DNA of 64,000 nucleotides, from the NCBI RefSeq assembly GCF_004365655.1, contig NZ_SOEO01000003.1, forward strand, positions 248,001 to 312,000. Direction: 5' to 3'. The notes under the pieces were generated by a model. It was not told the DNA's origin, ran no database searches, and worked only from the letters and a program-made list of their open reading frames with translations. This document shows positions 6,533 through 30,725 of this stretch, piece after piece. This DNA comes from Epilithonimonas xixisoli (GTDB lineage Bacteria; Bacteroidota; Bacteroidia; Flavobacteriales; Weeksellaceae). A program made the translations under genes and the position numbers. The stretch's first letter is position 1. The number at the start of each line of letters is the position of its first letter.

Positions 6533-6620
6533 GATTAACATTTTTTATAAAATCCTTAACTTATATTTTGGTTTGTTTTCTCGTTCTTTGTTTTATTAAC
6601 CATTATAAACAAAATTAATT

Positions 6621-7202: not shown

Positions 7203-7226
7203 TTGAATTTTAAAGTTCAATCAATA

Positions 7227-7256
7227 AAAAATCCAGCATCTGCTGGATTTTGTTTT
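7227..7256. terminator. Bidirectional terminator between convergent genes
   Basis: AAAATCCAGCA (7227-7237 region) pairs with TGCTGGATTTT, with A- and T-runs on both sides (ending TTTTTT). It lies between the amidase gene and the convergent aminotransferase-fold gene and can serve both. Confidence 0.8.
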
Positions 7257-8072
7257 TTATAAAGAAGGATTGAAAGACTCACTCCATTTTTCTACCATTT
7301 CTGAAAAACGTGTATTTTCAAAAGTCTTATTTCTGATTTTGGAAACTGAATGGACACCTTTTTCGTCAGAAATTCTCAGGATTTCTTCTGCCTTTTGAGA
7401 TTCGAATGCGATGATTTCTGCTTCTTCTATTTCAGCCAGTTTGTTTTTATGGATGAAAGTGACAAAGTTTTCCATCAGTGGCGAGATGTACGCGCCTTCC
7501 GTCTGTTTCGGGATTTTGATCACGTTGTCTTGCAGGAACAAAAGATTTCCGAAGATACTTCTTGCAATCTTCTTGTTTGGATTGAGGAGAATCACATCGT
7601 CCAAATCATTTTCTCTCGCATAGATTTGCGCATAGATATTTTCCGGAGAATGCACGCGGATATTACTCAAAAGATTAGCATTCACATTGATTTCCTTAAT
7701 CAAATCCAGCTCCACATTTCCTTGGATTTTAAGAATATCTTCCATCTCATCCACTTCGAAAAAGAACGCTGTTTCGGATTTTGACAAAGCCTTCTCATCT
7801 TGGATTCTGTAAGTCATTAGTTGGATAATTCCGTTCAGAATACCTTGGTCCAAGACTTCTTTTTGAAACAAATCCTGGAAAAATTCTAAAGTATAAGTCA
7901 ACGGAATGTTTAATCTCATTTTCCTCATCGAAGCCATTAGGAAAAAATAAGATTCCTCAGCCATTATGATTTGACCGTTTCTTATAAAAAATGAAACCCA
8001 AACCGAATCTCCAAATAGGAATGAACGGTTCAGTAGTTGTAAATTGTCTTGTGTGTAAACTATCTTCTGCAT
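7257..8072 (-). CDS. Aminotransferase class IV-fold protein, apparently lacking catalytic residues
   Basis: A 271-residue protein whose pattern (NRSFLFGDSVWVSFFIRNG, EESYFFLMASMRKM, ARENDLDDVILLN, GNLLFLQDN) follows class IV PLP enzymes such as branched-chain aminotransferase or aminodeoxychorismate lyase. Aligned by eye, key residues are missing. The H..R phosphate motif reads S..F; the Schiff-base lysine position, 20 residues before DDVILLN, is Ile or Arg (SNIRVHS); and the Glu that contacts the pyridine nitrogen is Arg (KKIARSIFGN). It is therefore probably a non-enzymatic or repurposed member. The intact ORF argues against simple decay. Confidence 0.75.
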   Translation of the reverse strand: MQKIVYTQDNLQLLNRSFLFGDSVWVSFFIRNGQIIMAEESYFFLMASMRKMRLNIPLTYTLEFFQDLFQKEVLDQGILNGIIQLMTYRIQDEKALSKSETAFFFEVDEMEDILKIQGNVELDLIKEINVNANLLSNIRVHSPENIYAQIYARENDLDDVILLNPNKKIARSIFGNLLFLQDNVIKIPKQTEGAYISPLMENFVTFIHKNKLAEIEEAEIIAFESQKAEEILRISDEKGVHSVSKIRNKTFENTRFSEMVEKWSESFNPSL

Positions 8073-8084
8073 TGTGGTATTTAA

Positions 8085-8114
8085 AAAAATAATGAACGAT
8101 CAAAAATCGTTCAT
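8085..8114 (-). terminator. Terminator after the START-like gene
   Basis: ATGAACGAT (8092-8100) and ATCGTTCAT (8106-8114) form a perfect 9-bp stem with loop CAAAA. In the minus-strand direction it is followed by ATTATTTTTTTAAAT. It separates the START-like gene from the class IV-fold gene. Confidence 0.75.
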
Positions 8115-8123
8115 CCATTTGTT

Positions 8124-8510
8124 TTAAGCGGCGCCTAATTTTATCTGTAGATTTTCTATCAAGTTTTCCCAATAGAGTTGGTTTTCTTCTTCATCGCCAT
8201 CCTCGCAGAAGTCGGTGATGTTCAGAGAAAGGTCGTCTGTAATTTCATCAATCACGATAGAAAGTTCGAAGAAATATTTGGTTCCTTCGTCCTCTTCCCA
8301 ACGGAATCTTACAAAACTTTCCGGCTTATAACGTATCAGTGTAGCCCTTTCAGCAGGACCACCGCCCCAGCTAAAAAAGAAATCGTCACCACGCTCTACA
8401 ACGTCGTCTGCAAACCATTCTGATAATCCTTCTGCACTTGCCAAATACTCATACAAAATCTCCGAGAGACAATGCATATTGTATTCATACTGCACTTTCG
8501 TTTTCGCCAT
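8124..8510 (-). CDS. START-like (SRPBCC fold) domain protein
   Basis: A 128-residue soluble protein of the START/AHSA1-like fold found across Bacteroidota. Visible family marks are the N-terminal KVQYEYNMHCLSEILYEYLAS, the WFADDV turn, the FSWGGG block and a C-terminal amphipathic helix (LYWENLIENLQIKLG). The fold makes a hydrophobic cavity that binds small ligands in other members; no ligand is known here. It is separated from the downstream gene by a terminator, so it is likely monocistronic. Confidence 0.85.
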   Translation of the reverse strand: MAKTKVQYEYNMHCLSEILYEYLASAEGLSEWFADDVVERGDDFFFSWGGGPAERATLIRYKPESFVRFRWEEDEGTKYFFELSIVIDEITDDLSLNITDFCEDGDEEENQLYWENLIENLQIKLGAA

Positions 8511-8909
8511 ATTCTAATTCTAATTGTGGCGCAATATATAAATTAATTTCTTATTTCCAAATCAAAATGTCTATGGAAATACAAAATTTTTATAGAAATA
8601 ATGTATGATTTTTATTAGCCGATTTGATACAGATGATTAATACTAATTTTTAGAATAATTGCGATCGCTTTTGAAGCTGGGTTTTATTTTTTATGGCAGC
8701 TATTCCGTCTTCCGTTCCCAATCTTTTTGCCCACGCTTTTCCAGCCACAAAAAAGGATTTCCACTCAAGCCGGGCTGCAGATTCAATATAAAATAAGATT
8801 TGTCGTTTCAAAAAGCGGCGAAGCTGCGTAATGTTGGTAGGAAATTAAGCTAATCATCAAAGTAGGTGCGAAGCACTGAAATGCTGGTTTCTTAATCTTA
8901 TTCAAATAT
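8511..8909. other. Intergenic region of 399 bp with repeat elements
   Basis: No credible coding sequence. It contains AT-rich DNA upstream of the START-like gene, an isolated GCGATCGC palindrome (8661-8668), dispersed repeat copy B (8695-8779), and two short GCGAAGC-bearing phrases (8815-8890, with GTAGGTGCGAAGCACTG) that resemble the GTAGGTGC repeat units at 55.4 kb. It lies between two minus-strand genes. Confidence 0.6.
8695..8779 (+). repeat. Dispersed stem-loop repeat, copy B
   Basis: Begins GGCAGC and ends GGGCTGCA, so the end stem is GCAGC/GCTGC, a third version of the stem seen in the other copies. Shared strings are CCGTTCCCAATCTTTTTGCC, CCAGCCACAAAAAAGGATTT and CCACTCAAGCCGGG. The inner stem pairs AATCTTTTT with AAAAAAGGATT with one bulged G. 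Confidence 0.85.
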
Positions 8910-10088
8910 TTATTCCACTTCATTCAAAGCTTCTAAAATAATCGCGCAACCTTTCCGGATTTCATCTTCCGAGATGGTCAAAGGCGGGGAGATTCTCATA
9001 TATTCATTTCGATAAAGTTGCCAAAACACAATCAATCCTTTTTCCATACATCTGGAAGCGACTTTCAAAGTATATTCTGGATTTCCAAGATTTACAGCCA
9101 ACATCAAACCTTTTCCGTTCACATTTTTGATTTTTGGATGAACGAGCAATTCTCGGAAGAGTTTTTCTTTTTTATCAGTTTCCTCCATCAATCCACTTTC
9201 CAAAACTTCTTTCAACGTTGCAAGAGAAGCGGCAGCAATCAACGGATTTCCACCAAAAGTCGTAATGTGTCCCAACTTCGGCGAATGTGAAAGGCTGGTC
9301 ATAATTTCTCTGGAACTCATAAAAGCACCCACCGGAACGCCGCCGCCCATTCCTTTTCCCATTACAAGAATATCGGGAACAATCCCAAAATGTTCGAACG
9401 CAAATAATTTTCCTGTACGTCCAAAACCCGGCTGAATCTCATCAAGAATCAACAAAGCACCAACTTCCTCACAACGCTTTTTCAGCTGAATAAAGTAATT
9501 GTCTTTTGGCATGATAAATCCTGCCGCACCTTGGATGGTTTCTACAATCACACAAGCCGTTTTCTCTGTGATTTTATCAAAATCATTCTCGTTATTGAAC
9601 TCGATGAAATTGACCATTGGCAACAACGGACGGAATTCTCGTTTGTGAACTTCGTTTCCTGCAACCGAAAGTGCGCCGTGCGTGTTCCCGTGATAAGCTT
9701 CTTTGAACGCGATGATTTCTTCTCTTCCCGTGTAACGCTTTGCCAATTTCAAACTTCCGTCAATAGCTTCTGCACCGGAGTTTACGAGATAGGTCACTTC
9801 CAAAGGTTCTGGTGTGGATTGTGCCAAAAGTCTGCAAAGCTCAACCGGTTTTTCCTGTGCGTATTCGCCATAAACCATCACGTGAAGGTATTTGTCTGCT
9901 TGTTCTTTGATAGCGTTCACAACCTTGGGATGCGAATGTCCCAAAGTATTTGCAGAAACGCCGGCTACAAAGTCGAGATAAGCTTTTCCGTTTTTTCCGT
10001 AGATGTAGCTTCCTTCTGCTTTTTCTACTTCGAAACCTGCAGCGTACGGAGTTGTTTGGGCTTGGTATTGAAAGAAATCTTGTTTCAT
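8910..10088 (-). CDS. Class III PLP-dependent aminotransferase (ornithine/acetylornithine type)
   Basis: A 392-residue cytoplasmic enzyme of fold type I, expected to move an amino group between an omega-amino acid and a keto acid. PLP-site marks are NSGAEAIDGSLKLAK (about residue 108), YHGNTHGALS (about 140), the Asp in LILDEIQPGFGRTG (about 215) and the Schiff-base Lys in GKGMGGGVPVGAF (about 245). Length fits acetylornithine, ornithine or lysine aminotransferase-like groups. I cannot tell the substrate, and no arginine-pathway genes sit nearby. All catalytic residues look intact, in contrast to the class IV-fold protein at 7257. Confidence 0.92.
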   Translation of the reverse strand: MKQDFFQYQAQTTPYAAGFEVEKAEGSYIYGKNGKAYLDFVAGVSANTLGHSHPKVVNAIKEQADKYLHVMVYGEYAQEKPVELCRLLAQSTPEPLEVTYLVNSGAEAIDGSLKLAKRYTGREEIIAFKEAYHGNTHGALSVAGNEVHKREFRPLLPMVNFIEFNNENDFDKITEKTACVIVETIQGAAGFIMPKDNYFIQLKKRCEEVGALLILDEIQPGFGRTGKLFAFEHFGIVPDILVMGKGMGGGVPVGAFMSSREIMTSLSHSPKLGHITTFGGNPLIAAASLATLKEVLESGLMEETDKKEKLFRELLVHPKIKNVNGKGLMLAVNLGNPEYTLKVASRCMEKGLIVFWQLYRNEYMRISPPLTISEDEIRKGCAIILEALNEVE

Positions 10089-17013: not shown

Positions 17014-18336
17014 TTATTGCTCTACAAACCAGATTTCAAATCTACTTCCTTTTTCCAAAGGTTTATAATTAAGATAACCTTTATGCGCCTCAATAATGCT
17101 TTTGCTCAAAGTTAAACCAATTCCGGAACCGCTGATTCTTGTAGTGAAGAATGGAAGGAAAATTTTGTCCTTAATTTCATTTGAGATTCCAATTCCGTTG
17201 TCTTCTACGCTTAAAAGAATTCGTTTGTTAAAGGTTTTAATTTCAGTTTTAATAATTCTTTCTGAATAATTGTCTGCAACTGCGTAAATCGCGTTCAGAT
17301 AAAGATTAATCAGACATCTTTCAATCATTTTCTGGTCAGCAAAGATTACTTGGTTTTCTAACGAATTGATAATTTTAATTTGATTTTTATCGAATTCCGG
17401 TTTGAGGAAATTAAGCGCAGATTCCACGATATTTGTTAGAGAAATAGTTTTGAAAACCGGCTTTGGAAGTTCGGCAACTTGGCGATAATCATCCACGAAA
17501 TTCAGTAATTGTTTCGATTTTGAATTGATAATCATCAAACTTTCCTTCATTTCTTCTTGGTCTTCTTTTTCAACAATTTCCTGATTGGCAATATATTCAA
17601 GATTTTGAATTAAGCTATTGACCGGCGTTAAAGTATTCAGAAGTTCGTGAGAAATGACTTTCATCAAATTATTCCAAGCCAGTTTTTCTTTTTGTTCAAT
17701 GATTTTCTGAACGGATTCCAAACTGATGATGCAGAAACGATTTTTCACATTCTGTACTTTTTTTGTTCGAAGAGAAAAGGATTGTTTCAAATTTTCATTA
17801 ATCGAAATATCGAAAAATTCCTGCGAGTTTTCGTAATTGGTTTGCTCAATGATTTTATAAAATTCTGATGTTTTAGCTTCGTATAAATCCCAAGAATTAT
17901 ATTTTGGAATCTGAAGAATTTCCAAGAAAATTGGATTCACATAAAAAACTTCCCATTGATTATTTTTTTCTGACAGAATCATCAATCCGATTTCTAATTG
18001 ATTCAAGATTTCCTCATACAAAAGTTTGTACGAAGACAACGAAAGATGCTCTTCTTTGCTTTGATAATAGAGTTTTACAGCATTATCGACCAAGCTGTTT
18101 TCTTCGGTTTTCGGAAACAATGAAAAATCTTTTTTCTGAATCGCCAAAAGTAATTTTTCCGTTTTTTGAATATAAGATAAAGCGGAAGTCTGCGCCAAAA
18201 TGATGCATCCAATCGTTATCATCGTGAACAAAGCGAAATTAATCCACTTGTTCTGAGAATAAAAATCAAATGCAAAAATCCCACAGACGATTGCCAGCAG
18301 AATAAATATAATCCAGAATATTTTTTGTTTATTCAT
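17014..18336 (-). CDS. Membrane sensor histidine kinase of the export operon
   Basis: A 440-residue kinase. Two N-terminal membrane helices (about residues 7-25 and 33-50) with almost no periplasmic loop suggest it senses within the membrane. A PAS-like region follows (about 105-185, FYVNPIFLEI). The H-box is SHELLNTLTPVN (His about 229). The ATP-binding part has N-box LINLYLNAIYAV, G1 VEDNGIGIS, FFTT and GSGIGLTLS. It is downstream of the sigma-54 response regulator on the same strand and is most likely its partner. Confidence 0.93.
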   Translation of the reverse strand: MNKQKIFWIIFILLAIVCGIFAFDFYSQNKWINFALFTMITIGCIILAQTSALSYIQKTEKLLLAIQKKDFSLFPKTEENSLVDNAVKLYYQSKEEHLSLSSYKLLYEEILNQLEIGLMILSEKNNQWEVFYVNPIFLEILQIPKYNSWDLYEAKTSEFYKIIEQTNYENSQEFFDISINENLKQSFSLRTKKVQNVKNRFCIISLESVQKIIEQKEKLAWNNLMKVISHELLNTLTPVNSLIQNLEYIANQEIVEKEDQEEMKESLMIINSKSKQLLNFVDDYRQVAELPKPVFKTISLTNIVESALNFLKPEFDKNQIKIINSLENQVIFADQKMIERCLINLYLNAIYAVADNYSERIIKTEIKTFNKRILLSVEDNGIGISNEIKDKIFLPFFTTRISGSGIGLTLSKSIIEAHKGYLNYKPLEKGSRFEIWFVEQ

Positions 18337-18438: not shown

Positions 18439-19782
18439 TTATAAACTAAATTTTTCCATTCTTCTGTAAAGCGCTGCTCGAGATAATCCCAAATCTTCCG
18501 CCGCTAAAGAAATATTTCCACGGTGTTTTTTCAAAGCTTTTTTGATGAGGATTTCTTCCATTTCTTCAATGTTCAAATTGACAATTGTTTTCTCGGATTC
18601 TTCATCTTGAGGCATCAGCAATTTAAGATTTTTTTCGTTGGAAAGAATCACGCTTCTTTCGATGCAATGGTCTAGCTCGCGGATATTTCCCGGCCAGGAA
18701 TAATGCGTTAATTCCGAAATTAAATTTTCATTTAAAATCAAGTCAGGTTTATGATATTTCTGTTTGTATTTATCCAAAAAATAATCAGCTAAATTTGAAA
18801 TATCTTCCAAACGTTCTCTCAGACTCGGAATATTTAATTCAACGGTATTGATTCTATAATATAAATCTTTTCGGAAACGATTTTCGGAAACACCTTTTTT
18901 AAGATTTTCATTGGTCGCAAAAATAAATCTCACATCCAACAATCTTTCTTTGCTTTCCCCGATTCTAGACAATTTTCTATTTTGAATCAAACTCAATAAT
19001 TTGGTCTGAAGATGAAGTGGAAGATTCCCTATTTCATCAAGGAAAACAGTTCCGTTTTCTGCATTTTCGATTTTTCCTGCGTAATCTTGATGCGCATCTG
19101 TGAATGCTCCTTTCTTGTAACCGAACAATTCGGATTCAAAAAGATTTTCAGAAAGACTTCCTAAGTCGATATGAACAAATGGCTGATTTTTCCTTTCTGA
19201 CAATTCGTGAATATGTTCCGCTAAAACATATTTTCCAGTTCCGTTTTCTCCCAAAAGCAAGACATTTGCATCAGTCGGGGCAACTCGTTCAATTTGACCC
19301 ATTACTTCCTGCATCGCGGGAGATTTTGTTTCTAATTGATATTGATTGGTTTTGATGCTGATATTTTCCCACTGATTCAGTTTTTTGTTTTTTCGGGAAA
19401 TATCGACGGCGAGATTCACAGAAGCGTATAATTTTTCGTTATTCCAAGGTTTCAGAATAAAATCTGACGCGCCGTTTTTTAAAGCTTCAACCGCCAATTC
19501 TACTTCGCCGTAAGCGGTCATCAGGATAATTGGAAGCTGTGGTTCCAACGTTTTGATTTCATTCATCCAATACAATCCGTCTTGCCCGCTCTCAAAACCT
19601 TTCCGAAAATTCATATCGAGAAGAACCGTATCAACTTGTTGCTCCGCTAAAAACTTCAGAATATTCTTCGGCTGGCTGAGACAGCTGACTTCTGTAAAAA
19701 ATTTCTTAAGCCAAACTCTCGCCGAAAATAAAATATCCTCGTCGTCATCTACAATTAAAATATGAGCTTCTTTTTTTCGCAT
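18439..19782 (-). CDS. Sigma-54-dependent response regulator (NtrC-like)
   Basis: A 447-residue activator. The receiver domain (1-125) has VDDDED and the phosphorylated Asp56 in VLLDMNF, with Lys111 in LKPW. The AAA+ domain (about 150-385) has Walker A GENGTGKY (178-185), the sigma-54 contact loop GAFTDA (225-230; GAFTGA in most relatives) and Walker B GTVFLDEIG. A Fis-type DNA-binding helix pair ends the protein (ISLAAEDLGLSRAALYRRM). GAFTDA is a common functional variant. It reads away from the export operon, whose upstream region holds the likely binding sites. Confidence 0.95.
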   Translation of the reverse strand: MRKKEAHILIVDDDEDILFSARVWLKKFFTEVSCLSQPKNILKFLAEQQVDTVLLDMNFRKGFESGQDGLYWMNEIKTLEPQLPIILMTAYGEVELAVEALKNGASDFILKPWNNEKLYASVNLAVDISRKNKKLNQWENISIKTNQYQLETKSPAMQEVMGQIERVAPTDANVLLLGENGTGKYVLAEHIHELSERKNQPFVHIDLGSLSENLFESELFGYKKGAFTDAHQDYAGKIENAENGTVFLDEIGNLPLHLQTKLLSLIQNRKLSRIGESKERLLDVRFIFATNENLKKGVSENRFRKDLYYRINTVELNIPSLRERLEDISNLADYFLDKYKQKYHKPDLILNENLISELTHYSWPGNIRELDHCIERSVILSNEKNLKLLMPQDEESEKTIVNLNIEEMEEILIKKALKKHRGNISLAAEDLGLSRAALYRRMEKFSL

Positions 19783-19847: not shown

Positions 19848-19884
19848 TGTCCGTTTCCGCACAAAAAGTGTTCGATAATGAACA
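19848..19884. promoter_or_regulatory. Tandem palindromic activator sites upstream of the export operon
   Basis: TGTCCGTTTCCGCACA (19848-19863) and TGTTCGATAATGAACA (19869-19884) both fit TGTYCG-N4-YGMACA. Their centres are 21 bp apart, two helical turns, and they lie about 80-100 bp before the sigma-54-like promoter. This is the usual arrangement of enhancer sites for an NtrC-like dimer pair; the neighbouring response regulator is the obvious binder. Confidence 0.6.
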
Positions 19885-19947
19885 GTTTTAAAATTAATAA
19901 ATTGAAGTTTAATCACATTTTCAGAGCGTTACAGAATTATAAATCTC

Positions 19948-19963
19948 TGGCATTTGCATTGTG
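19948..19963 (+). promoter_or_regulatory. Candidate sigma-54 (-24/-12) promoter
   Basis: TGGCATTTGCATTGTG: TGGCA at -24 and TTGT at -12, with the required 10 nt between GG and the -12 GT. The -24 half is good; the -12 half differs from TTGC at one position. Transcription would start near 19974, about 23 bp before the ATG at 19997. Confidence 0.5.
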
Positions 19964-19996
19964 TAATTATCTGTAAGCAAATTAGTTATCTAAAAT

Positions 19997-21238
19997 ATGG
20001 ATACGAAAATAGTAAAAAAGAAATCTAAACTAAAATTAATATCAATTATCATTGTTTCTGCATTGGCAGTTTCTGTTTTTGGATGGTATTTCCTGAATCA
20101 GAAAAAAACTTATAATGTAAAGTCGGAAGATATCACGATTGATGAAGTGACCAATGGGAAATTCGAAGATATGTTGATGGTAACTGCGCAGACGCAATCT
20201 CTTAATTCTTCTCTTGTGAATGTTTTGGAAGGTGGTGCTGTGAAAGAAATTTTTGCGGAAGACGGACAAATATTGACGAAAGGACAACCAATCGCAAGAG
20301 TTTACAATCCGAATACGGAATTCAATTATCTGAATCAGGAAACGGGAATTATGCAACAAATCAGCCAGATGAGAAGTTCACTTTTAGAACTGAAAAATCA
20401 GGAATTCAATCTGGATAAGGAATTGCTTCAGTCTCAAAATGATTACAATACTGCGTTGCAGACTTTTAATCTTCAAAAAAGACTGTACGATGCGGAAATC
20501 GGAAAGAAAACTGATTATGATATTGCACTTCAGAATTTGAATTATCAAAAAGACAGAAAACAAATTGTAGAAAAAGGAGCTTCGAATGAGAAACTTTCTA
20601 GAAATTCTCAGTTTTCAGCAATCAATAATTCCATTAATCAAATGGAAAAAAGCTTGAATATTCTTCGTTCCAACAAAAATAATTTCCTGATAATGTCGCC
20701 GGCCTCGGGAAGATTGTCGTCATTCAATATTTCTCTCGGACAAAATTTGACAAGCGGAGAAAGCATCGGGAAAATCGATTTGATGGACGGTTACAAGTTG
20801 GTTGCAAAAGTCGATGAATATTACATTAATAAATTAACCAACGGAATCAAAGGAACGCTTGACAACAACGGAAAAGAATATGAAGTCATCATCACGAAAA
20901 TTCTTCCTGAAGTGAAAGACGGACAGTTTTCTGTGGAACTGAATTTCATTGATGCGAAAATCGAAAACCTGAAAATTGGGATGACTTTCGGAGTGAAACT
21001 GAAATTGTCTGCCGATACGCAAAGTATGATGATTCCGAAAGGTAATTTCTACAAAGACACGAACGGAAAATGGATTTTTGTAGTGAAAAATAACAAAGCT
21101 GAAAAACGAAACATCAGTTTGGGAAGAGAAAATCCTCTTTATTATGAAGTGACTTCTGGACTGAAACAAGGCGAATCTGTGATTACTTCAGATTATTCTG
21201 AATTGAAAAAATACGAAATGCTTGAAATTCAAAAATAA
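19997..21238 (+). CDS. Periplasmic adaptor (HlyD/MacA type) of the export operon
   Basis: A 413-residue membrane-fusion protein that bridges an inner-membrane transporter and a TolC channel. One N-terminal membrane helix (about residues 13-32) anchors it. A lipoyl half-motif follows (VKEIFAEDGQILTKGQPIARV, about 76-97), then a long coiled-coil hairpin (about 100-225), the second lipoyl half (SPASGRLSSFNISLGQNLTSGE) and beta-barrel domains. It is the first gene of a run on one strand: adaptor, GIN protein, metallopeptidase, ATPase, two permeases, TolC. A candidate sigma-54 promoter and activator sites lie upstream. Confidence 0.93.
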   Translation: MDTKIVKKKSKLKLISIIIVSALAVSVFGWYFLNQKKTYNVKSEDITIDEVTNGKFEDMLMVTAQTQSLNSSLVNVLEGGAVKEIFAEDGQILTKGQPIARVYNPNTEFNYLNQETGIMQQISQMRSSLLELKNQEFNLDKELLQSQNDYNTALQTFNLQKRLYDAEIGKKTDYDIALQNLNYQKDRKQIVEKGASNEKLSRNSQFSAINNSINQMEKSLNILRSNKNNFLIMSPASGRLSSFNISLGQNLTSGESIGKIDLMDGYKLVAKVDEYYINKLTNGIKGTLDNNGKEYEVIITKILPEVKDGQFSVELNFIDAKIENLKIGMTFGVKLKLSADTQSMMIPKGNFYKDTNGKWIFVVKNNKAEKRNISLGRENPLYYEVTSGLKQGESVITSDYSELKKYEMLEIQK

Positions 21239-21282: not shown

Positions 21283-22060
21283 ATGCAAAAACTATTATTA
21301 CTATTAATAACAATGATTGTCGGCCTTTTTGTGACTTCAACAACGTTGAAAGGAAATGATTTTTCGAATGTGATTCAGAAATCAGAAACTAAAACTTTTA
21401 ATTTGAGTTCTTTTCAATGCTGTGAAAACTTCTCAGGCGATTGAAGTGGAAATTGTAAAGTCAGACGAAGAAAAAGCGGTTGCGACAAGTACGCATTTGT
21501 CAGAACTTAAAATCGAAGTGAAAAATAAAACTCTTTATGTGCAATATAAACCGAATGTTTCTCTTCAGAATGCCGATACAAAAGTGGTTGTGTACGCAAA
21601 AGACCTTATAAAAGCAGAAGCTGGAAACGCATCTTTTATAAAATTGAAAAGTGTTTTTGAAAATGCTGAACAAACTTTTGAAAGTAACGGAAGCGGGAAA
21701 ATTTATGCAGATTCAAAAGCTTCGGCTGTTAATATTAATACAAATAGTGCAGGCGGATTTTCAGGAAAAATCAATACAAAAAACCTGAAGGTGAATGCTA
21801 ATTCTGCTAGTGTTGTGAAAATGAGTGGTTCTGCTGATAATGCGGAAATCAATGTAGACAGCGCAAGTTCTTTGGATGCAAAAAATATGAATATTCAAAC
21901 CGCAAAAGCAACTGCAAGAGCAACATCATCAATTATTTTAAGTATTTCCAAAGAGTTGACAGCTTCTGCAAGTTCATTAGGTGAAATCAGATATAAAACT
22001 TTATCTGGAATCAGGTTTTCTGCTAGCAGAAGTTCCGGTGGAACAATCGATTCAATTTAA
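21283..22060 (+). pseudogene. GIN-domain (DUF2807) protein with a frameshift
   Basis: Two frames together make one protein of about 258 residues. The N-terminal frame starts at ATG 21283 with a signal-like sequence (MQKLLLLLITMIVGLFVTS) and reads to SSFQCCENFSGD, stopping at TGA near 21448. Removing one T from the TTTT run at 21411-21414 gives SSFNAVKTSQAIEVEIVKSD and joins it to the second frame, which runs to 22060. The second part has the repeated beta-helix pattern of GIN/DUF2807 domains (KLKSVFENAEQTFESNGSGK, INVDSASSLDAKNM). It is probably an exported envelope protein; it is either a recent mutation or a sequence error. Confidence 0.8.
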
Positions 22061-22095: not shown

Positions 22096-23553
22096 ATGAT
22101 GACCTTGAAGATGATTTATAAAAGCGTATTGACCCTGTTGATGTTTTTATTTGCTGTGAATCTGAAATCTCAATCAAAAGTTGATGTGGAATTCAGTCCT
22201 AATATTTCGACTTATTCCATTGTTGAATATTTGGTTGCAAAAGAGCAGGGAAGACTTTTCTATATTGATGGAAAAACAGACATTAGTTATCTTCCGTTAG
22301 CAGATTTGGCCAATAAGGAAATGGAGAAATATGATAATTCTAAAATCATAAAAGCGATGCAGGATTATCTGAAAATTGCAGGTCAACAACAGGATTTGTC
22401 TTATCAGGCTTTATTGAAACATAATATTTTTCCCGCAACAGGATTCGCTTTCCCAATTGAAGAAAATGATATTGCCAAGAAAGAAGCTGGGGAGAAATTT
22501 GCAGAACAGTTGAGGGAATTTTACATCGAAAGAAATTTAGGGAAATTCTTCAAAGACCAAAGCTATTTTATAGAAGGAGCAAAGAACGAGGTCAGAAAAA
22601 ATATTCCTGCTTCTTATATGTCGAAAATGGAAAAATATTATGGAGCGAAGTTTTTGGCGTACAGATTTTACGTTAATCCATTTGATGTTTTGCCTTACAG
22701 CGAGGTTTTCTGGCACGGCAACGGACCGATGTTCAAGTCTGACAAAGGACAAATCGCGAATATGATTAGCAGTGCGTATGTTCCGTTGAAAAAGAAAAAT
22801 AATCTCAAAGATTACACAGAATTTGGATTCAATCATCCTGAGACGACCAATTTTTTAATTACGCACGAATTTGGACATTCCTTCGTCAATCAATATTTAG
22901 GTCAATACGAATCTAAAATTAATCAAAGTAATAACCTGATGTCTGAAGCTTTTATTGGGAAAATGGACGGACAAGGTTACTCTTATTGGCCGTCTTGTGT
23001 GGGCGAACATATCGTAAGAACGGGAGAAATCAGAATTGCTTTGACTAATGGAAATCCTCAGTTGGCTGAAAAATTAAGAAAACAACACATCCAAGAAAAT
23101 TCTTTTGTTCTCATTCCAGACTTCGAAAAGAAAATGGAAGAGTATGAAAACAACAGAAAAAAATATAAAACATTTAAAGAATTTGTTCCTGAGTTGTTAA
23201 CTGTTTTAGATGAGACAAGTGTAGAAAAAGTAAGAGAAAAATTGGGTTTGCCTAATGAAAAATACCAGATTACTTTGACGCTTACTGTTCCTGAAAATAG
23301 TGGAGATGTTTATATCACAGGAAATCAATCTGCCATCGGTTCTTGGAATCCTCAGAAAATTAAACTCTATAAAACCAACGAAACTACCAGACAAATTACT
23401 TTCGATACTTATCCTGATTTGAGATTTAAATTAACTAAAGGAAGTTGGCAGACAGAAGGAATTATTGACGGAATCGAAGAAGGTAAAGATGTAGCCTTAT
23501 CAATTGATAAAAACACGAGTCTGAATTACACCATTAAAAACTGGAAACAATAA
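22096..23553 (+). CDS. Secreted DUF4932 metallopeptidase with a C-terminal CBM20-like domain
   Basis: A 485-residue exported protein with a signal peptide (residues 1-27, ending VNLKSQ). Residues 30-385 match DUF4932, a putative zinc-metallopeptidase family, with HEFGH at 257-261 (TNFLITHEFGHSFVNQYLG). The C-terminal 95 residues, from about 391, resemble a starch-binding CBM20 domain (ITLTLTVPENSGDVYITGN, SAIGSWNP). No starch enzyme is near, so the domain may bind another glycan or act as a beta-sandwich. It sits between the GIN protein and the ATPase in the export operon. Confidence 0.85.
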   Translation: MMTLKMIYKSVLTLLMFLFAVNLKSQSKVDVEFSPNISTYSIVEYLVAKEQGRLFYIDGKTDISYLPLADLANKEMEKYDNSKIIKAMQDYLKIAGQQQDLSYQALLKHNIFPATGFAFPIEENDIAKKEAGEKFAEQLREFYIERNLGKFFKDQSYFIEGAKNEVRKNIPASYMSKMEKYYGAKFLAYRFYVNPFDVLPYSEVFWHGNGPMFKSDKGQIANMISSAYVPLKKKNNLKDYTEFGFNHPETTNFLITHEFGHSFVNQYLGQYESKINQSNNLMSEAFIGKMDGQGYSYWPSCVGEHIVRTGEIRIALTNGNPQLAEKLRKQHIQENSFVLIPDFEKKMEEYENNRKKYKTFKEFVPELLTVLDETSVEKVREKLGLPNEKYQITLTLTVPENSGDVYITGNQSAIGSWNPQKIKLYKTNETTRQITFDTYPDLRFKLTKGSWQTEGIIDGIEEGKDVALSIDKNTSLNYTIKNWKQ

Positions 23554-23579: not shown

Positions 23580-24302
23580 ATGATAAACATTCAAAACCTT
23601 TCAAAAATCTATAAAACTGAAGATGTTCAAACCAACGCTTTGAACAATGTAAGCCTCAACATCAAAGATGGCGAATTTGTAGCGATAATGGGGCCTTCAG
23701 GTTGTGGGAAATCGACTTTTCTTAATATTCTTGGTTTGCTGGACAGCGCTTCTTCAGGTTCTTATCAGTTTGAATCAACGGAAACCATCGGAACTTCTGA
23801 GAAGAAAAAATCAGACATCAGAAAGAAAAATATCGGTTTCATTTTCCAGAATTTTAATTTGATTGATGAACTTACGGTTTATGAAAACATCGAATTGCCA
23901 TTGATTTACAACGGTGTTTCTTCCTCAGAAAGAAAAAGACGAGTGGAGGAAATTATGGAGAAAATCAACATTGCGCACAGAGCAAAACATTATCCACAGC
24001 AACTTTCCGGAGGTCAACAGCAGAGAGCGGCGGTTGCAAGAGCGTTGGTCACGAGACCAAAACTAATTCTTGCTGATGAGCCAACTGGAAATCTTGATAG
24101 TTCCAACGGAAATGAGGTGATGAATCTCTTGGCAGAACTGCACAGAGAAGGTTCTACAATCGCAATGGTAACGCACTCTTCTTACGATGCAGGTTACGCT
24201 TCCAGAATCGTGAATATGAAAGATGGCGAGATTTTTAGTGAAGAACATTCTTCTCAAAGAAAAGATGTTTTCGAAAAAGCAGACGCAAAAAATTTCGAAT
24301 AA
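23580..24302 (+). CDS. ABC transporter ATPase (MacB/LolD type) of the export operon
   Basis: A 240-residue cytoplasmic ATPase powering the two FtsX-type permeases that follow. It has Walker A GPSGCGKS, Q-loop FIFQNFNLIDELT, signature LSGGQQQRAAVARAL, Walker B LILADEPTGNLD and H-loop MVTHS, all canonical. The MacB/LolD subfamily releases lipoproteins or exports peptides, macrolides and toxins by periplasmic pumping. It starts 26 bp after the metallopeptidase gene; a hairpin separates it from the first permease. Confidence 0.96.
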   Translation: MINIQNLSKIYKTEDVQTNALNNVSLNIKDGEFVAIMGPSGCGKSTFLNILGLLDSASSGSYQFESTETIGTSEKKKSDIRKKNIGFIFQNFNLIDELTVYENIELPLIYNGVSSSERKRRVEEIMEKINIAHRAKHYPQQLSGGQQQRAAVARALVTRPKLILADEPTGNLDSSNGNEVMNLLAELHREGSTIAMVTHSSYDAGYASRIVNMKDGEIFSEEHSSQRKDVFEKADAKNFE

Positions 24303-24388: not shown

Positions 24389-26803
24389 ATGCTAAACAAC
24401 TGGCTCAAAATTGCCTTCATCAATTATAAAAAGAATTGGCTTTCCACAATCATCAATCTGTTTGGATTGACAATCGGATTGACAGGATTTATGCTCATCC
24501 TGATGCATTGGAATGACGAAGAATCTTACGAAAAATGGAATCCAAAGAAGGAAAATATCTACGCTTTCCAAACTCATAACAAAGCAGAAAATACTTATGG
24601 AAATAATATTTCTGTTCCAATGGCGGAGCGCGCTGTGAAAGTGATTCCGGAGGTTAAGGATTTCGTTTTGTTCAATGGTTCCGGAATGGGATATAAAATG
24701 ACCACAAAAACCAAAACTGTTTATCAGGGAGATGGAATGTCTGTTTCTGAAAGTTTCTTCAATTTCTTCCCATTCAAATTGGTTTCCGGAAGTTATAAAG
24801 ATGCTTTGAAAGGCGATAAAGTTATTGCTCTTTCCACAAAAGCGGCCAAAAACCTTTTTGGAAAAACCAATGTTGCGGGAGAAACTGTGAAATTCGATAA
24901 TGGAAGTTTTGTAGTAACCGCGGTTTATGAATTGCCAAAAGAAAACAGCCAGATAAAACCGGAGTTTATCATTTCGCCATTTGAGCAGATGAAAAATGAC
25001 AAAGAACAATGGGGAAATTTCAATTACGGATGTTTCTTTTTGCTTAAACCGGGAACAGATGTGGAAGCTTTGCAACAGAAATTCTACGACAATATCTTTT
25101 TATACAGAGCAAAAATAAATGCGCAAGGAGCAGGAGTAACTCCAGTGAAATATTTGGAATTGTACGGACCGACAGGAAGTTTGTTCACACCAATTGATGA
25201 GATAAAATTGCACGCCAAAGCATCGTGGTTTGGAACTGGAGATTTCAAAACGATGATGATTCTATTCACACTTTCGGTTTTGATTGTTGTTTTGTCAGCC
25301 ATTAATTTTATTAATTTAAAGACAGCTCAGGCCTCTCAAAGAGCTAAAGAAATAGGTGTCAGAAAAGCGATTGGAAGCACAAAATCAAATTTAGTTCTTC
25401 AGTTTTTGTTGGAAACTTTTGTGATTTGTTTTGCATCGTATCTTTTGTCTTTAGCTTTAACAGAATTGCTTTTGCCAAGCTTCAACAAGTTTTACGACAA
25501 AGAAATAGTGATGAATGATTGGCATATTTACTATTATTCATTTGCAATGGTTTTGGCTGTTACATTGATTTCGGGATTGATTCCGGCAACTTATTTAGCC
25601 AACTTCAAAGCGATAGAAACCTTGAAAGGAAATTTCGCCATAAGTAAACACGGAATATGGCTGAGAAATGGAATTTTGACCTTGCAATTGATTATTTCAT
25701 CCTTCTTCATTATTGGTGGATTGATTGTTAACAGTCAAGTAAAGCATATGATGGACAAAGACCTTGGCTTTAGTGGAAAGCAAGTTTTGTTGATTAATTT
25801 CAGTGAGAATGATGCAAAACCTTGGTTGAAGTACGAACGCATCAAAAACGAGATGAAAAAAATCGAAGGTGTTGCCGATGTTTCTTATGGAGAAGCGGCT
25901 CCCGGAAGTAATAGATACAGTAATTCTAATATGGATTATATGGACAAAAGTATCTTCGCTCAGCACGGTTCTATGGATTACAACTACCTCCAGTTTATGG
26001 ATGTCAAACTGAAAAAAGGACGCTGGTTAAATCCAAATCTCGCTTCTGATACTATCGCTAATGTTTTGGTCAATGAGGCTTTTGTTAGAAAATTTGGATG
26101 GACAGATGACCAGGCTTTTAAAAATGAAGTTCGTCCTGGATTTGATAATAAACCTTACCATATTGTAGGAATTGTAAAGGATTTCAATGTTTTCAATCCT
26201 CGTATAGATGTAGACCCAATCATATTTTTCCATTACAGAGAAACCGAATGGAAACGATACAATGTTTACAATATTCAGCTAAAATTAAAAGCAGATGATA
26301 TCGATGGAACGGTAAAAAGAATCAAAAAATATTGGCAAAACAATGTAGAACCAGGTTATCCTTTTGATTATTATTTTGTGGATAAAAAATTTGCCGAGAG
26401 TTTTGTCAAATATCAAAAACAGCAGACACTTTTCACAATCCTGAATGCAATGGTTTTGATGGTAGCATTACTCGGATTATTCGCTTTGTCATCATTGATG
26501 ATTGAGCAGAAACTGAAAGATGTTGCCATCAGAAAAACATTGGGCGCATCCGACAAAACTTTGATTGTTGGTTTGACAAAACAATTCCTCTGGATTACTT
26601 TGATAGCAGTTTTAATCAGTATTCCAATCAGTTATTATCTAATGAATGAATGGCTGAAAGATTTCGCTTACCGAATTGATATGCCGGTTTTCCCGTTCGT
26701 CCTCAGTCTGATTTTATTATTGATTTTAACATTCGCAGTGGTGAGCATCAAAGCCTACCAAGCCACAAAAGTGAATCTTGTGAAATATCTAAAATACGAG
26801 TAA
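24389..26803 (+). CDS. ABC permease with two FtsX/MacB domain sets, first paralogue
   Basis: An 804-residue inner-membrane permease. A first membrane helix near residues 20-42 (INLFGLTIGLTGFMLIL) and a large periplasmic domain are followed by three FtsX helices (about 285-400; LKTAQASQRAKEIGVRKAIGST). The pattern repeats in the second half: a helix near 425-445, a periplasmic domain and three C-terminal helices. The double layout suits a monomer that replaces a MacB dimer. It is similar along its whole length to the next gene, so the pair arose by duplication. It works with the ATPase at 23580. Confidence 0.93.
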   Translation: MLNNWLKIAFINYKKNWLSTIINLFGLTIGLTGFMLILMHWNDEESYEKWNPKKENIYAFQTHNKAENTYGNNISVPMAERAVKVIPEVKDFVLFNGSGMGYKMTTKTKTVYQGDGMSVSESFFNFFPFKLVSGSYKDALKGDKVIALSTKAAKNLFGKTNVAGETVKFDNGSFVVTAVYELPKENSQIKPEFIISPFEQMKNDKEQWGNFNYGCFFLLKPGTDVEALQQKFYDNIFLYRAKINAQGAGVTPVKYLELYGPTGSLFTPIDEIKLHAKASWFGTGDFKTMMILFTLSVLIVVLSAINFINLKTAQASQRAKEIGVRKAIGSTKSNLVLQFLLETFVICFASYLLSLALTELLLPSFNKFYDKEIVMNDWHIYYYSFAMVLAVTLISGLIPATYLANFKAIETLKGNFAISKHGIWLRNGILTLQLIISSFFIIGGLIVNSQVKHMMDKDLGFSGKQVLLINFSENDAKPWLKYERIKNEMKKIEGVADVSYGEAAPGSNRYSNSNMDYMDKSIFAQHGSMDYNYLQFMDVKLKKGRWLNPNLASDTIANVLVNEAFVRKFGWTDDQAFKNEVRPGFDNKPYHIVGIVKDFNVFNPRIDVDPIIFFHYRETEWKRYNVYNIQLKLKADDIDGTVKRIKKYWQNNVEPGYPFDYYFVDKKFAESFVKYQKQQTLFTILNAMVLMVALLGLFALSSLMIEQKLKDVAIRKTLGASDKTLIVGLTKQFLWITLIAVLISIPISYYLMNEWLKDFAYRIDMPVFPFVLSLILLLILTFAVVSIKAYQATKVNLVKYLKYE

Positions 26804-26917: not shown

Positions 26918-29344
26918 ATGTTAAAAAACTGGCTCAAAATAGCATTCATCAACTACAGAAAAAACTGGCTTTCTACCATTATCAATATCTTGGGATTGAG
27001 CGTTGGTCTGTGCGTTTTTTTGTTGATATTCATCCATTGGCAAGATGAAAAATCTTATGAAGATTGGGTTCCGAATAAGGAGAATATATATTTGGTCGAG
27101 AATCATATTGATAGTTTTGGAGATATGTCGCAGTCCAGTTATCCTCAATTGTATGCTTCCAAAGAGAAGTTTCCAGAGATTGAAGATTATACGATTGCTA
27201 ATATTTGGGATTGGTATAAAACAAGATTGATTGCAGGCGATAATTCTAGCTACTCTTCGATAGGACAAGTTTCTAGTCAGTTTTTTAAATTTTTCCCTTT
27301 TGAAACTGTTGCTGGTGATATTAATAATGCGATGAAAGATAAATCTCAAATTGCATTATCGGAAAAAACGGCGATACAATTATTCGGGGACGATTATAAA
27401 AATAGCATTGGGAAAACGGTAAAAAAAGACCAAAATGGTAATATTTACACAGTTTCTTTGATTTATAAATTGCCAGAGAAAAATTCGGTTTTCAAAGCAG
27501 ATTATCTCATATTGGAAACTCAGCCCAAAGATAATGACCAATGGTTAAGCTATAGTTTTTTTGGTTTGTTTAAATTGAAGCCAGGAACAGATGTTCAGAA
27601 ATTGGAAGCAAAATTGTCCAAACAACAAGCGGAACAAGAAGAGATTCTATCCAAAAAATGGGGTGCTCCATTTGATAAAAACAAACCTGCAAAAGTTTAC
27701 CTGACTCCAATCACAAAAATAAAATTGGATGCAAAAGGCGATGGGATCTTAAAAGGAGATAAGAAATCTTTGAAGATATTATTGGGTTTATCAATTCTGA
27801 TCCTGATGTTGACAGGCATCAATTTAATAAATCTGAAGACTGCACAATCTGCCCAAAGAGCAAAAGAAGTTGGCGTAAGAAAAGTGGTTGGTAGCTCCAA
27901 AACAAATTTAATTTTCCAGTTTTTAATAGAGACTTTTATCATTTGTTTGGTGGCTTATCTAGTTGCATTGGCTTTATTAGAATTGCTTTTACCATCTTAT
28001 AACCAATATTTAGGCAAACAAATTAAACTTAACGACCCTGATGTTTTTATAGGTTCCGGTCTATTATTGATTGTATTTGCATTATTTGCAGGGATCATTC
28101 CATCTGTTTATTTATCGAATTTCAAACCTATCAATACTTTGAAAGGTAATTTCTCCCGAAGCAAACAAGGCGTTTGGCTGAGGAATTTTATTCTGACATT
28201 ACAGCTTGTGATTTCATCATTTTTCATTATTTGCTCATTGATTATCCATTTGCAGGTAAAATTTATGATGAAGAAAGAGTTGGGTTTCAAAGGGAATCAA
28301 GTGATTCAAATCGATTTCAAAAAAACAAATTATAATGAGAAAGATTATGATGTCAAAAAGTACGAACTGCTTAGAAATGAAGTCAGAAAAATCCCAGGCG
28401 TTGTAGCAACTACAGGTTCTGTACAATCTCTGGGAATGGGATTACGTAATGCTTCCAGTGCAAAAAATGCTGCCGATACAACCAAAGTTGTGAACAATGT
28501 TGCATTGGGCGGAATGGAAGAAAATTATTTCAAATTCTATGATATGAAAATCGTTGCAGGACGTAACCTAGATTGGAGAAAAGCCTCAGATACTATTAAT
28601 GGAACCGTCATTAATGAAACTTTTGCAAAGAAAATGGGATGGAGCAATCAGCAGGCAATTGGTAAAGAAATTCTGCCAGGTTGGGAAGATAAGAAGAAGT
28701 ACAAAATTCTGGGCGTTGTAAAGGATTTCTATTATGGCGGAGTTGATAAACCAATAGAATCGGCTTCTTTTTATAACTACCAGAGAAACTGGTCAAAAAA
28801 TAGTATGACCAATCTGCAAATAAAAATAGATGCAAACGATATCAACGGAACCTTGGAAAGAATCAAAGAATTCTGGACAACCAAAGCAGAACCGGGTTAT
28901 CCTTATGATTACAATTTTGTAGATAAACAATTTGCTAAAACATTTGAGAAATTCCAGAAACAACAAACATTGTTCACAACTTTAAATATCGTGGTTTTGG
29001 TCATTGCATTGTTAGGATTATTTGCATTATCATCATTATTAATTGAACAAAAATTGAAAGACGTAGCCATCAAAAAAACTTTGGGAGCAGACGAAAGGAC
29101 GATTGTCTGGGATTTGACCAAAAGATTTTTACTGATTTGTGTAATTGCGGTTTTCATCAGTATTCCATTTGGTTATTATGCGATGAACGAATGGCTGAAA
29201 GATTTCGCTTATAGGATTGATATGCCCGTTTGGCCTTACGTTTTGAGTATGATTTTGTTACTGATTTTAACATTCGCAGTCGTGAGTTTCAAAGCTTACC
29301 GAGCTACAAAAATTAACCTTGTCAAATATCTGAAATACGAGTAA
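26918..29344 (+). CDS. ABC permease with two FtsX/MacB domain sets, second paralogue
   Basis: An 808-residue permease paralogous to the previous gene. The ends are nearly identical: start NWLKIAFINYRKNWLSTIIN, end VKYLKYE. The membrane parts align well (LLIEQKLKDVAIKKTLGAD, ILTFAVVSFKAYRATK). The periplasmic domains differ most, so the pair may form a heterodimer or have two specificities; this is inferred. The same helix layout as its paralogue is seen. It is followed by a strong hairpin and then the TolC gene. Confidence 0.93.
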   Translation: MLKNWLKIAFINYRKNWLSTIINILGLSVGLCVFLLIFIHWQDEKSYEDWVPNKENIYLVENHIDSFGDMSQSSYPQLYASKEKFPEIEDYTIANIWDWYKTRLIAGDNSSYSSIGQVSSQFFKFFPFETVAGDINNAMKDKSQIALSEKTAIQLFGDDYKNSIGKTVKKDQNGNIYTVSLIYKLPEKNSVFKADYLILETQPKDNDQWLSYSFFGLFKLKPGTDVQKLEAKLSKQQAEQEEILSKKWGAPFDKNKPAKVYLTPITKIKLDAKGDGILKGDKKSLKILLGLSILILMLTGINLINLKTAQSAQRAKEVGVRKVVGSSKTNLIFQFLIETFIICLVAYLVALALLELLLPSYNQYLGKQIKLNDPDVFIGSGLLLIVFALFAGIIPSVYLSNFKPINTLKGNFSRSKQGVWLRNFILTLQLVISSFFIICSLIIHLQVKFMMKKELGFKGNQVIQIDFKKTNYNEKDYDVKKYELLRNEVRKIPGVVATTGSVQSLGMGLRNASSAKNAADTTKVVNNVALGGMEENYFKFYDMKIVAGRNLDWRKASDTINGTVINETFAKKMGWSNQQAIGKEILPGWEDKKKYKILGVVKDFYYGGVDKPIESASFYNYQRNWSKNSMTNLQIKIDANDINGTLERIKEFWTTKAEPGYPYDYNFVDKQFAKTFEKFQKQQTLFTTLNIVVLVIALLGLFALSSLLIEQKLKDVAIKKTLGADERTIVWDLTKRFLLICVIAVFISIPFGYYAMNEWLKDFAYRIDMPVWPYVLSMILLLILTFAVVSFKAYRATKINLVKYLKYE

Positions 29345-29425
29345 AGCAGGAAGTTTGATGATGGAAGCTGGAGGTTTTTTTATATCATATTTAAAACATC
29401 CAGCTTCCATCATCCATCTTCCAAC
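29345..29425. repeat. Strong intercistronic hairpin before tolC
   Basis: GATGATGGAAGCTGGA (29357-29372) pairs perfectly over 16 bp with TCCAGCTTCCATCATC (29399-29414). Outside, GGAAG and CTTCC add five more pairs after a 3-nt internal loop. The loop is AT-rich and there is no T-run after the stem, so it is not a standard terminator. Confidence 0.75.
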
Positions 29426-29438
29426 CAAAATTTCCACA

Positions 29439-30725
29439 ATGAAAAAACTATTCTTCATATTCATCATCAATTTTTTCCCAGCGCAAGAAAGTTGGACGCT
29501 GAAACAATGTCTGGATTATGCGTCTGCCAATCATCCTTTGGTGAAGCAATCTGCCATCAACATTCAAAAAAATGACCGATTGATTTCTGCGTCCAAAGGA
29601 ATGTTACTTCCGTCTGTGGATGCTGGGGTCAATCACAATTACAATTTTGGAAACGGGATTAATCCGCAGAATAACCAGCGCGAGGCCATCAACACGCAAA
29701 CCGACAATCTCTACGCTCAAGCGAATTGGGAACTTTTGAATTGGCGAAATTATCTCAATATTTCTCTGTCCAAAATCAACAAAGAAACTTCTACGTTCCG
29801 AATGAAGCAAACGCAGAATGAGATTAAACTAAATGTCATTCAGATGTTTTTCACTTACCAAAACAGCAAAAGTTGGCTCGAGGTTTTGCAAACGCAATTA
29901 GCCGGAATTGAAGATCAAATCAAACGGACAGAAAAAGAAGTTGAAATTGGGAATCGGCCGAAAAGCGATATTTATGACATCAAAGCCAATCTCGGAACAA
30001 TGCAGGAACAATGGGTTTCTGCGAAGAATCAAAGAGATCTTTCGAAGATTAATTTGCTTAATGCTTTAGCGATTACAAATGATACTTTAGATTTTACAAT
30101 GACCGAAGAAAACCTTGCCATTTCAAATTTTAACGATGCTAATTTCATCCAAAATCTTCTCGAGAAAAATCCCGCTTATCAAACGACTTTGGCGGAAATC
30201 AAAGCGCAACAAAAAAGTGTGGATGTTGCAAAATCTGGTTATTTGCCAACCTTGAACGGTTCCTACACTTGGTCCAGTTTTTACAACAGGGTTTTGGGAG
30301 AACCAGCAATTAATTTTTCGGAACAAATTAAAATGAACAAAAATCAGCAATTAGGTTTCGGGCTCAATATTCCTATTTTCAATAAGTTACAAGTCAAAAA
30401 CAATGTCGAGATTGCGAAATTGAACGTCATCAATTCCAATTACGACAAAGATATTGTGATTAATAATCTCACTCAAAGTATCAATTCCATCAAAACCCAA
30501 TTTTTGAATGCGCAGGAAAAATACAATCTTCTGGAAGCCAACTTCGAAAACCAAAAACTATCTTTCCAAAAATCCGAAGAAAAATACAAGGAAGGCTTGA
30601 TGGACGCGTACACATTCTTTGTTGTAAGAAATGGTTGGTTACAAGCAAATTACAATCTAATCAATAGTAAAAATGACGTTATCCAACAAACCGAATTACT
30701 AAAAGTTTTCGAAGCTGGATTTTAA
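29439..30725 (+). CDS. TolC-family outer membrane channel of the export operon
   Basis: A 428-residue outer-membrane efflux protein with an N-terminal signal (MKKLFFIFIINFFPAQ). It has the two-repeat pattern of TolC: WTLKQCLDYASANHPLVK at the start of the first repeat and a long coiled-coil of alternating heptads. I chose the ATG at 29439, not the open frame from 29355, because it begins at the signal peptide and the upstream stretch is the hairpin. It completes the adaptor-ATPase-permease set and ends at a terminator. Confidence 0.92.
   Translation: MKKLFFIFIINFFPAQESWTLKQCLDYASANHPLVKQSAINIQKNDRLISASKGMLLPSVDAGVNHNYNFGNGINPQNNQREAINTQTDNLYAQANWELLNWRNYLNISLSKINKETSTFRMKQTQNEIKLNVIQMFFTYQNSKSWLEVLQTQLAGIEDQIKRTEKEVEIGNRPKSDIYDIKANLGTMQEQWVSAKNQRDLSKINLLNALAITNDTLDFTMTEENLAISNFNDANFIQNLLEKNPAYQTTLAEIKAQQKSVDVAKSGYLPTLNGSYTWSSFYNRVLGEPAINFSEQIKMNKNQQLGFGLNIPIFNKLQVKNNVEIAKLNVINSNYDKDIVINNLTQSINSIKTQFLNAQEKYNLLEANFENQKLSFQKSEEKYKEGLMDAYTFFVVRNGWLQANYNLINSKNDVIQQTELLKVFEAGF

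Follow-up and report, generated by a model that had tools for sequence, protein, structure and literature searches.

A predicted sigma-54 enhancer-promoter unit with a dedicated two-component activator upstream of a MacAB/Dar-like exporter in Epilithonimonas xixisoli and its relatives

Two described systems come closest to the control region reported here (papers given by PMC number are cited from excerpts). In Desulfovibrio vulgaris, the orp promoters are served by DVU2106, a divergently encoded activator that carries GAFTDA in its activator loop and recognises palindromic sites (PMC3897727, PMC4641369). IHF sites lie between the activator sites and the -24/-12 element, at orp2 with IHF at -43 and the activator at -88, and DVU2106 works with sigma-54 and IHF when the system is reconstituted in E. 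coli (PMC3897727). The need for IHF at orp comes from that reconstitution, and deletion of one IHF-alpha gene in D. vulgaris left orp expression unchanged. In Enterobacterales, the two-component NtrC-type regulator QseF/GlrR acts at glmY, where several putative upstream sites with TGTC...GACA arms, IHF sites and a sigma-54 promoter are found and the target is a small RNA (PMC8745638).

On the side of the target genes, sigma-54 promoters were recently predicted on COG0577/FtsX antimicrobial-peptide ABC permeases in Bacteroidia and called first evidence (PMC12316311, 2025). The same target-gene class, sigma factor and organism class are concerned here, so that the regulatory axis itself had been predicted earlier; that study combined promoter matrices with COG enrichment, and to it the present analysis adds predicted enhancer sites, a putative dedicated regulator, a spacing and a predicted bend site. 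The coupling of a two-component system to a MacB-type transporter is known from BceRS-BceAB, whose kinase has no extracellular sensor domain (PMC5985334). MacAB-TolC and the darobactin exporter DarBCD are the closest models for the exporter, with which it shares adaptor, ATPase, permease and TolC-type parts.

The window analysed here is a stretch of 64,000 nucleotides from Epilithonimonas xixisoli (contig NZ_SOEO01000003.1, positions 248,001 to 312,000). Its relevant features are the following.

17014 to 18336, reverse strand: histidine kinase with two predicted transmembrane helices, a very short loop, a predicted PAS-like fold (117-208) and a kinase core.
18439 to 19782, reverse strand: NtrC-type response regulator with a receiver, an AAA+ sigma-54 activation domain carrying GAFTDA and a Fis-type helix-turn-helix; predicted binder of the palindromes.
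19848 to 19863, forward strand: palindrome 1, TGTCCGTTTCCGCACA, predicted enhancer (UAS) site of the response regulator, centre at about -118.
19869 to 19884, forward strand: palindrome 2, TGTTCGATAATGAACA, second predicted UAS site, centre at about -97.
19919 to 19931, forward strand: IHF-like site, TTTCAGAGCGTTA, one mismatch to WATCARNNNNTTR, at about -55 to -43; predicted DNA-bend site.
19948 to 19963, forward strand: sigma-54-type -24/-12 element, TGGCATTTGCATTGTG, with a predicted start at 19974.
19997 to 21238, forward strand: periplasmic adaptor (HlyD/MacA/DarC-like), first gene of the exporter series.
21422 to 22060, forward strand: DUF2807 (head-GIN) protein, optional cargo gene.
22096 to 23553, forward strand: DUF4932 protein, optional cargo gene.
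23580 to 24302, forward strand: ABC ATPase (MacB/LolD/DarD-like).
24389 to 26803, forward strand: MacB/FtsX-type duplicated permease 1.
26918 to 29344, forward strand: MacB/FtsX-type duplicated permease 2.
29355 to 30725, forward strand: TolC-type outer-membrane channel, listed from a TTG codon that is followed by an in-frame ATG.

The four regulatory elements are contained in a 214-bp gap with the divergent regulator gene on one side and the adaptor gene on the other. A preliminary description had reported two 16-mers fitting TGTYCG-N4-YGMACA, with centres 21 bp apart, followed by an element with -24/-12 spacing. Both 16-mers match the pattern, the coordinates bear out the distance between them, and the -24/-12-spaced element is present, with its -24 G at 19950 and hence a predicted start at 19974, in agreement with that description. 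The IHF-like site is a third element that was absent from that description.

This is a machine of a known kind, for which DVU2106-orp and QseF-glmY are the nearest described examples. The locus stands out by its unusually clear geometry and by the recognition series described below, which merits testing; a search of open-licence PMC full text, which leaves most subscription journals outside, found no description of these enhancer sites, of the bend site or of the dedicated regulator. Several differences separate the locus from its models. DVU2106 is listed as a single-component regulator, of septum-related operons, in contrast to the two-component regulator and exporter of the window, and the two palindromes lying two helical turns apart are unlike the orp promoters; compared with orp, the identity of the IHF-like site rests here on a sequence-based prediction. 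The QseF/GlrR consensus TGTC-N10-GACA spans 18 bp against 16 bp for the palindromes (PMC8745638), and the regulator of the window scores 296 bits against a GlrR cut-off of 763.

In the 3.39 Mb genome of E. xixisoli, the strict palindrome TGTYCGNNNNYGMACA occurs three times, two of them at 19848-19884, and the reversed-pattern control once. A looser form with one mismatch is found at 159 forward places versus 104 for its reversed control, so that single weak sites are uninformative and the pair is what counts. Three of the remaining exact single matches to the strict or looser form were examined and all fall within long open reading frames (L151 by its coordinates); C1:814497 was outside the examined set. 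No second tandem pair was found in this genome by a pattern with a 4-7-bp gap or by a looser one with a 5-bp gap. Across 295 Bacteroidia genomes, the tandem pair with a 4-7 bp gap occurs at 13 distinct places in 10 genomes (14 rows, one place being counted on both strands), while the reversed control gives 0. Eight of these places, that of the window included, have a regulator homolog on one side and an exporter adaptor on the other; in G156 the pair and the regulator are in addition separated by a channel gene.

The other five places are confined to two large genomes, G353 and G401, where extra pairs ahead of further genes point to a wider regulon. At L050 (6309-9335) the pair is followed by a PadR-type regulator, identified by Pfam, and then by a MacB permease, and the same order was read by eye at L052 (near 6230-9243); this arrangement suggests that the site has spread to further exporters. 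The pair of L051 precedes small genes ahead of MacB. Those of L053 (6236-6272) and L054 (5562-5598), both in G401, precede genes for small secreted or DUF4097 proteins. DUF4097 resembles the DUF2807 of the window's exporter series, so the regulon may include such envelope proteins.

Conservation of the pair in relatives having the same gene pair was the check that the preliminary description had set for itself. With a gap of exactly 5 bp, the looser pair is present once each in 21 of 23 genomes of the genus (reversed control 0), and these same 21 encode an ortholog of the adaptor. The two genomes lacking the pair, G002 and G014, yielded no adaptor match at E <= 1e-30 and no regulator match better than 2.3e-84, which is paralog level. 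A match to the adaptor at E <= 1e-30 was obtained in 34 genomes among 118 relatives, and all of these except G058 also have a regulator match better than 1e-110 (33/34). Twenty-nine of 30 first-round regulator orthologs showed the pair with at most two mismatches per palindrome; in the thirtieth (L029) the site falls outside the flank that was fetched and was located by a whole-genome scan of G011, which brings the count to 30/30. A further sample of 70 loci, of which 67 were used, comprised 17 already-used sequences and 50 held-out loci, mostly from Chryseobacterium with Kaistella, Elizabethkingia and a few Weeksellaceae or Flavobacteriaceae. The pair was recovered in 67/67 of this sample and thus in 50/50 held-out loci; loci and regulators, here and below, are related by descent and their counts are not independent. 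The predicted conservation was thereby borne out.

In all 50 held-out loci, the palindromes are spaced by 21 bp and palindrome 1 lies 144-151 bp from the ATG of the adaptor gene, whereas the distance from pair to regulator gene varies from 3 to 1184 bp; in G011, from the first round, it reaches about 2.4 kb. Since the distance to the adaptor is constant and that to the regulator variable, the pair belongs to the exporter. Across 17 members of the genus, columns upstream of palindrome 1 have a mean identity of 0.61, and those of the stretch running from palindrome 1 through to the ATG one of 0.89 to 0.996, palindrome 2 itself being at 0.996; the first 60 coding bases reach 0.91, so that the promoter block is about equally conserved as, and not more conserved than, the coding sequence. 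Seven loci of the genus (L010, L015, L019, L020, L021, L023 and L025) carry about 1-1.4 kb of other sequence between the regulator gene and the palindromes, with an unchanged distance from promoter to adaptor.

The regulator belongs to the NtrC class by its domains (receiver, PF00158 AAA+ domain and Fis-type helix-turn-helix). Its activator loop reads GAFTDA and not GAFTGA, the exact GAFTGA being found in 1 of 66 regulators read. GAFTDA is among the variants expected to keep activity (PMC4641369), and a GAFTDA protein in another study pulled down no RpoN (PMC10714721).

Upstream of regulator genes of other families, a pair with a score of at least 20 was found at 28 of 66 loci, and none of 40 control regions upstream of paralogous activator genes had one (best 7.9); the pairs of L139 and L143 reach this score with TGTGCG-type letters. 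At 38 of the 66 loci no pair attains a score of 20, the causes including changed letters, a site outside 1 kb (L060) and no visible site (L099 and L100). By this score and the rule applied for divergent exporters, 25 loci have such an exporter without the pair, 13 have neither and four have the pair without a divergent exporter. The regulators of L099 (G157) and L100 (G229) are 51 and 48% identical to that of the window, and no exporter homolog nearby and no recognisable sites were found there.

The presence of a site follows the recognition helix of the regulator. A single site scoring at least 14 is found beside 15/18 AALYRR, 6/7 ASLYRR and 5/5 SSLYRR regulators, and beside 8/10 in the remaining LYRR-ending or unparsed classes (TALYRR apart). 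Of the TALYRR/K regulators, 9/10 are accompanied by sites of TGTATC type and 1/10 by the canonical one; as an exception, TGTATC-type sites also occur beside 4/18 AALYRR regulators. Neither type was seen beside any of the 16 LYNK and other LYRK regulators, and de novo sites for the LYNK group were too few to claim. In the 40 control regions, a canonical single site was found once and a TGTATC-type site never. Three of five TTLYRK loci (L066, L067 and L122) show tandem palindromes of TGTTTC/TGTACC type 23 bp apart, which is suggestive only, and a hand count tentatively places TGGCA near 75 bp in these three; both FALYRK loci have, again tentatively, palindromes of TGTGCG type. As read from the sequences, recognition helix and palindrome letters change together, as co-variation along a tree rather than as independent events.

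Sites of sigma-54 activators lie roughly 80-150 bp upstream, in phase with the promoter. With centres at about -97 and -118, the two palindromes fall in this range and keep the phase. The -24 half of the element has the expected GG (TGGCA at 19948), at a distance conserved across loci. Its -12 half is TTGTG against the consensus TTGCW, so that the strict GC is missing, and GT in place of GC is shared by the window and 13 of 14 close loci. Of the 27 distant loci, 25 retain the first T of TTG, 18 the G and 8 the C (absent in 19). As the strict -12 letter fails, the promoter claim rests on the -24 half, the spacing and the neighbours. RpoN is encoded in the genome of E. xixisoli (G000, PF04552 at 1.3e-51), and rpoN was found in 56 of 59 genomes, this one included.

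In 14 close loci (identical stretches removed), the centre of palindrome 2 is 73 bp from the element in every case. Geometry was further compared at 33 pair-bearing loci outside the genus, some from further genera within the family and some from different families. Measured from the centre of palindrome 2, the top-scoring -24/-12 element falls at 61-65 bp in 10 loci and at 71-76 bp in 18, so that 28/33 fit and 5/33 do not; shuffled spacers placed a mean of 6.0 and a maximum of 11 of 33 in these windows. The two classes correspond to about 6 and 7 helical turns of 10.5 bp, and the spacing between palindromes, 20-23 bp across loci, to about two turns. A third class at 84-86 bp (L033, L034 and L106) was dropped, since the TGGC letters there probably belong to the -12 half (TTGGC) of an element situated 12 bp further upstream. 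Scoring both halves removes this class for L034 and L106; L033 stays at 84 bp and was counted as a miss.

The IHF consensus used, WATCARNNNNTTR, is given in PMC3897727. Of the 33 distant loci, 15 have an IHF-like site with at most one mismatch to it that begins at an offset of 41-43 bp from the palindrome 2 centre, against a maximum of 3 in 300 shuffles, and 35 of 50 held-out loci have one at the same offset. The site at 19919-19931 is thus a probable DNA-bend site, judging from its letters and position. Three PF00216 (HU/IHF-type) places were found in the E. xixisoli genome. Two of the proteins were scanned, and neither reaches an IHF cut-off; the one that comes nearest to IHF has a best score of 72.8 bits against 111.

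The exporter is related to, and not identified with, the Dar system: NCBIfam matches to DarC, DarD and DarB were obtained, every one of them below its curated cut-off (DarC 174.8 of 450, DarD 283.9 of 375, DarB 120.1 and 123.9 of 700 bits). In L197 and L200 the ATPase gene directly follows that of the adaptor, which marks DUF2807 and DUF4932 as optional cargo. By eye, the DUF2807 gene of the window (21283-22060) looks split, its signal-peptide part starting at about 21283 in a different frame, and intact-looking copies are present in two relatives (L198 and L199).

The kinase shares two transmembrane helices and a short loop with Bce-type kinases; the loop measures 7 amino acids by hydropathy and 3 residues in the structure model (pLDDT 82.7, pTM 0.49). 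Counts from a lenient hydropathy scan were discarded, a stretch near residue 113 that it called transmembrane being a PAS strand in the model. The best PDB matches of the model are LOV/PAS kinases, and Pfam PAS matches in relatives are below cut-off only. No periplasmic sensor domain was seen in the kinase; with two transmembrane helices and a PAS-like fold, the signal would thus probably come from the membrane or the cytoplasm. Our guess, from the type of exporter, is that the inducing signal is envelope or peptide stress. A Bce-type module is defined by a kinase without a cytoplasmic sensor domain, from which the predicted PAS fold sets this kinase apart. Unlike in Bce systems, the regulator here is a sigma-54 activator and any sensing through the transporter is conjectural. 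That sensing, by an intramembrane kinase, was lowered in our assessment by the PAS fold, and again by finding the same two-helix start in kinases beside regulators without a nearby exporter (L111, L112, L114 and L117).

Taken as a whole, these observations make it highly likely, on sequence grounds, that the MacAB/Dar-like exporter is expressed from a sigma-54 promoter under a two-component activator dedicated to it, with bending of the DNA at the IHF-like site; the control region, the 150 bp ahead of the adaptor gene, very probably switches on the neighbouring export pump. The kinase would phosphorylate the neighbouring NtrC-type regulator, as its domains suggest. Lying in phase, with centres at about -118 and -97, the palindromes would offer a tandem platform for the AAA+ hexamer of the regulator, a role to which the co-variation points. 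An IHF/HU-type protein may bend the DNA at about -49, as the sequence and position of the site indicate. The resulting loop would deliver the hexamer to the sigma-54 polymerase at -24/-12, where ATP hydrolysis opens the promoter, a step established for the class, and the output would be the MacAB/Dar-like adaptor, ATPase, permease and TolC-type exporter. The preliminary description had already read palindromes, promoter and adjacent activator gene as one enhancer-promoter unit; that reading, with binding as its predicted part, gains support from conservation, the tie to the exporter, the RpoN gene, the fixed distances and the co-variation of helix and site.

Other readings were weighed. The palindromes could serve mainly as an operator for autorepression of the divergently transcribed regulator gene, with control of the exporter as a secondary role. 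In L062, L065, L064, L055 and L063 they lie 3-13 bp from the regulator start codon, where binding should block transcription. We nevertheless judge this improbable, given the adaptor distance fixed at 144-151 bp against a regulator distance of 3 bp to about 2.4 kb, and the orientation of the -24 and IHF-like elements toward the exporter. Both roles coexist for DVU2106 (PMC3897727) and by analogy may coexist here. That another DNA-binding protein occupies the palindromes is very doubtful: their recognition by the neighbouring regulator is a prediction from sequence, but regulator, pair and adaptor co-occur genome by genome in the genus, the site letters follow the recognition helix of the neighbouring regulator, and none of the 40 paralogous-activator regions has the pair.

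The primary sigma factor of Bacteroidota recognises the -7 motif TAnnTTTG. If it transcribed the exporter, TGGCA would be conserved for some other reason, and the weak -12 half in the genus as well as the GAFTDA loop would be consistent with this. We hold this to be quite unlikely, as TAnnTTTG is absent from both strands of the window's intergenic region, TGGCA stands at helical-turn distances in distant loci, and a GAFTDA activator, DVU2106, works with sigma-54 (PMC4641369, PMC3897727). The frequency of one-mismatch single palindromes, 159 against 104 in the control, might suggest that chance matches were mistaken for a unit, a reading of negligible probability in view of the exact pair at 13 places in 295 genomes (control 0) and refuted by its presence in 21/23 genus genomes and 50/50 held-out loci.

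Returning to the dedicated-activator reading, a bolder extension can be imagined, which we regard as speculative and on balance unlikely. The unit would be the promoter end of a class-wide exporter-sensing module of Bacteroidia, in which the kinase, having no periplasmic sensor, senses the state of a MacB-type exporter and a sigma-54 activator dedicated to it responds by way of a loop of fixed geometry, with two turns between sites, six or seven to the -24 half and a bend site between. Helix and letters changing together at fixed geometry would then amount to a natural DNA-recognition code for Fis-type activator domains.

In the open-licence literature, little was found about the activators that work with sigma-54 in Bacteroidota or about their binding sites. 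The present locus offers a precisely delimited enhancer-promoter unit that can be tested and that has one target in Epilithonimonas and related bacteria; forms of it can still be recognised elsewhere in the class, in other families. Its two spacing classes allow direct tests of helical phasing and of whether a bend site is required, and the helix series AALYRR, TALYRR and, tentatively, TTLYRK and FALYRK, with their half-sites, forms a set for decoding how Fis-type domains read DNA. The unit also puts a name to the predicted control of a family of pumps with kinship to exporters of peptides and drugs.
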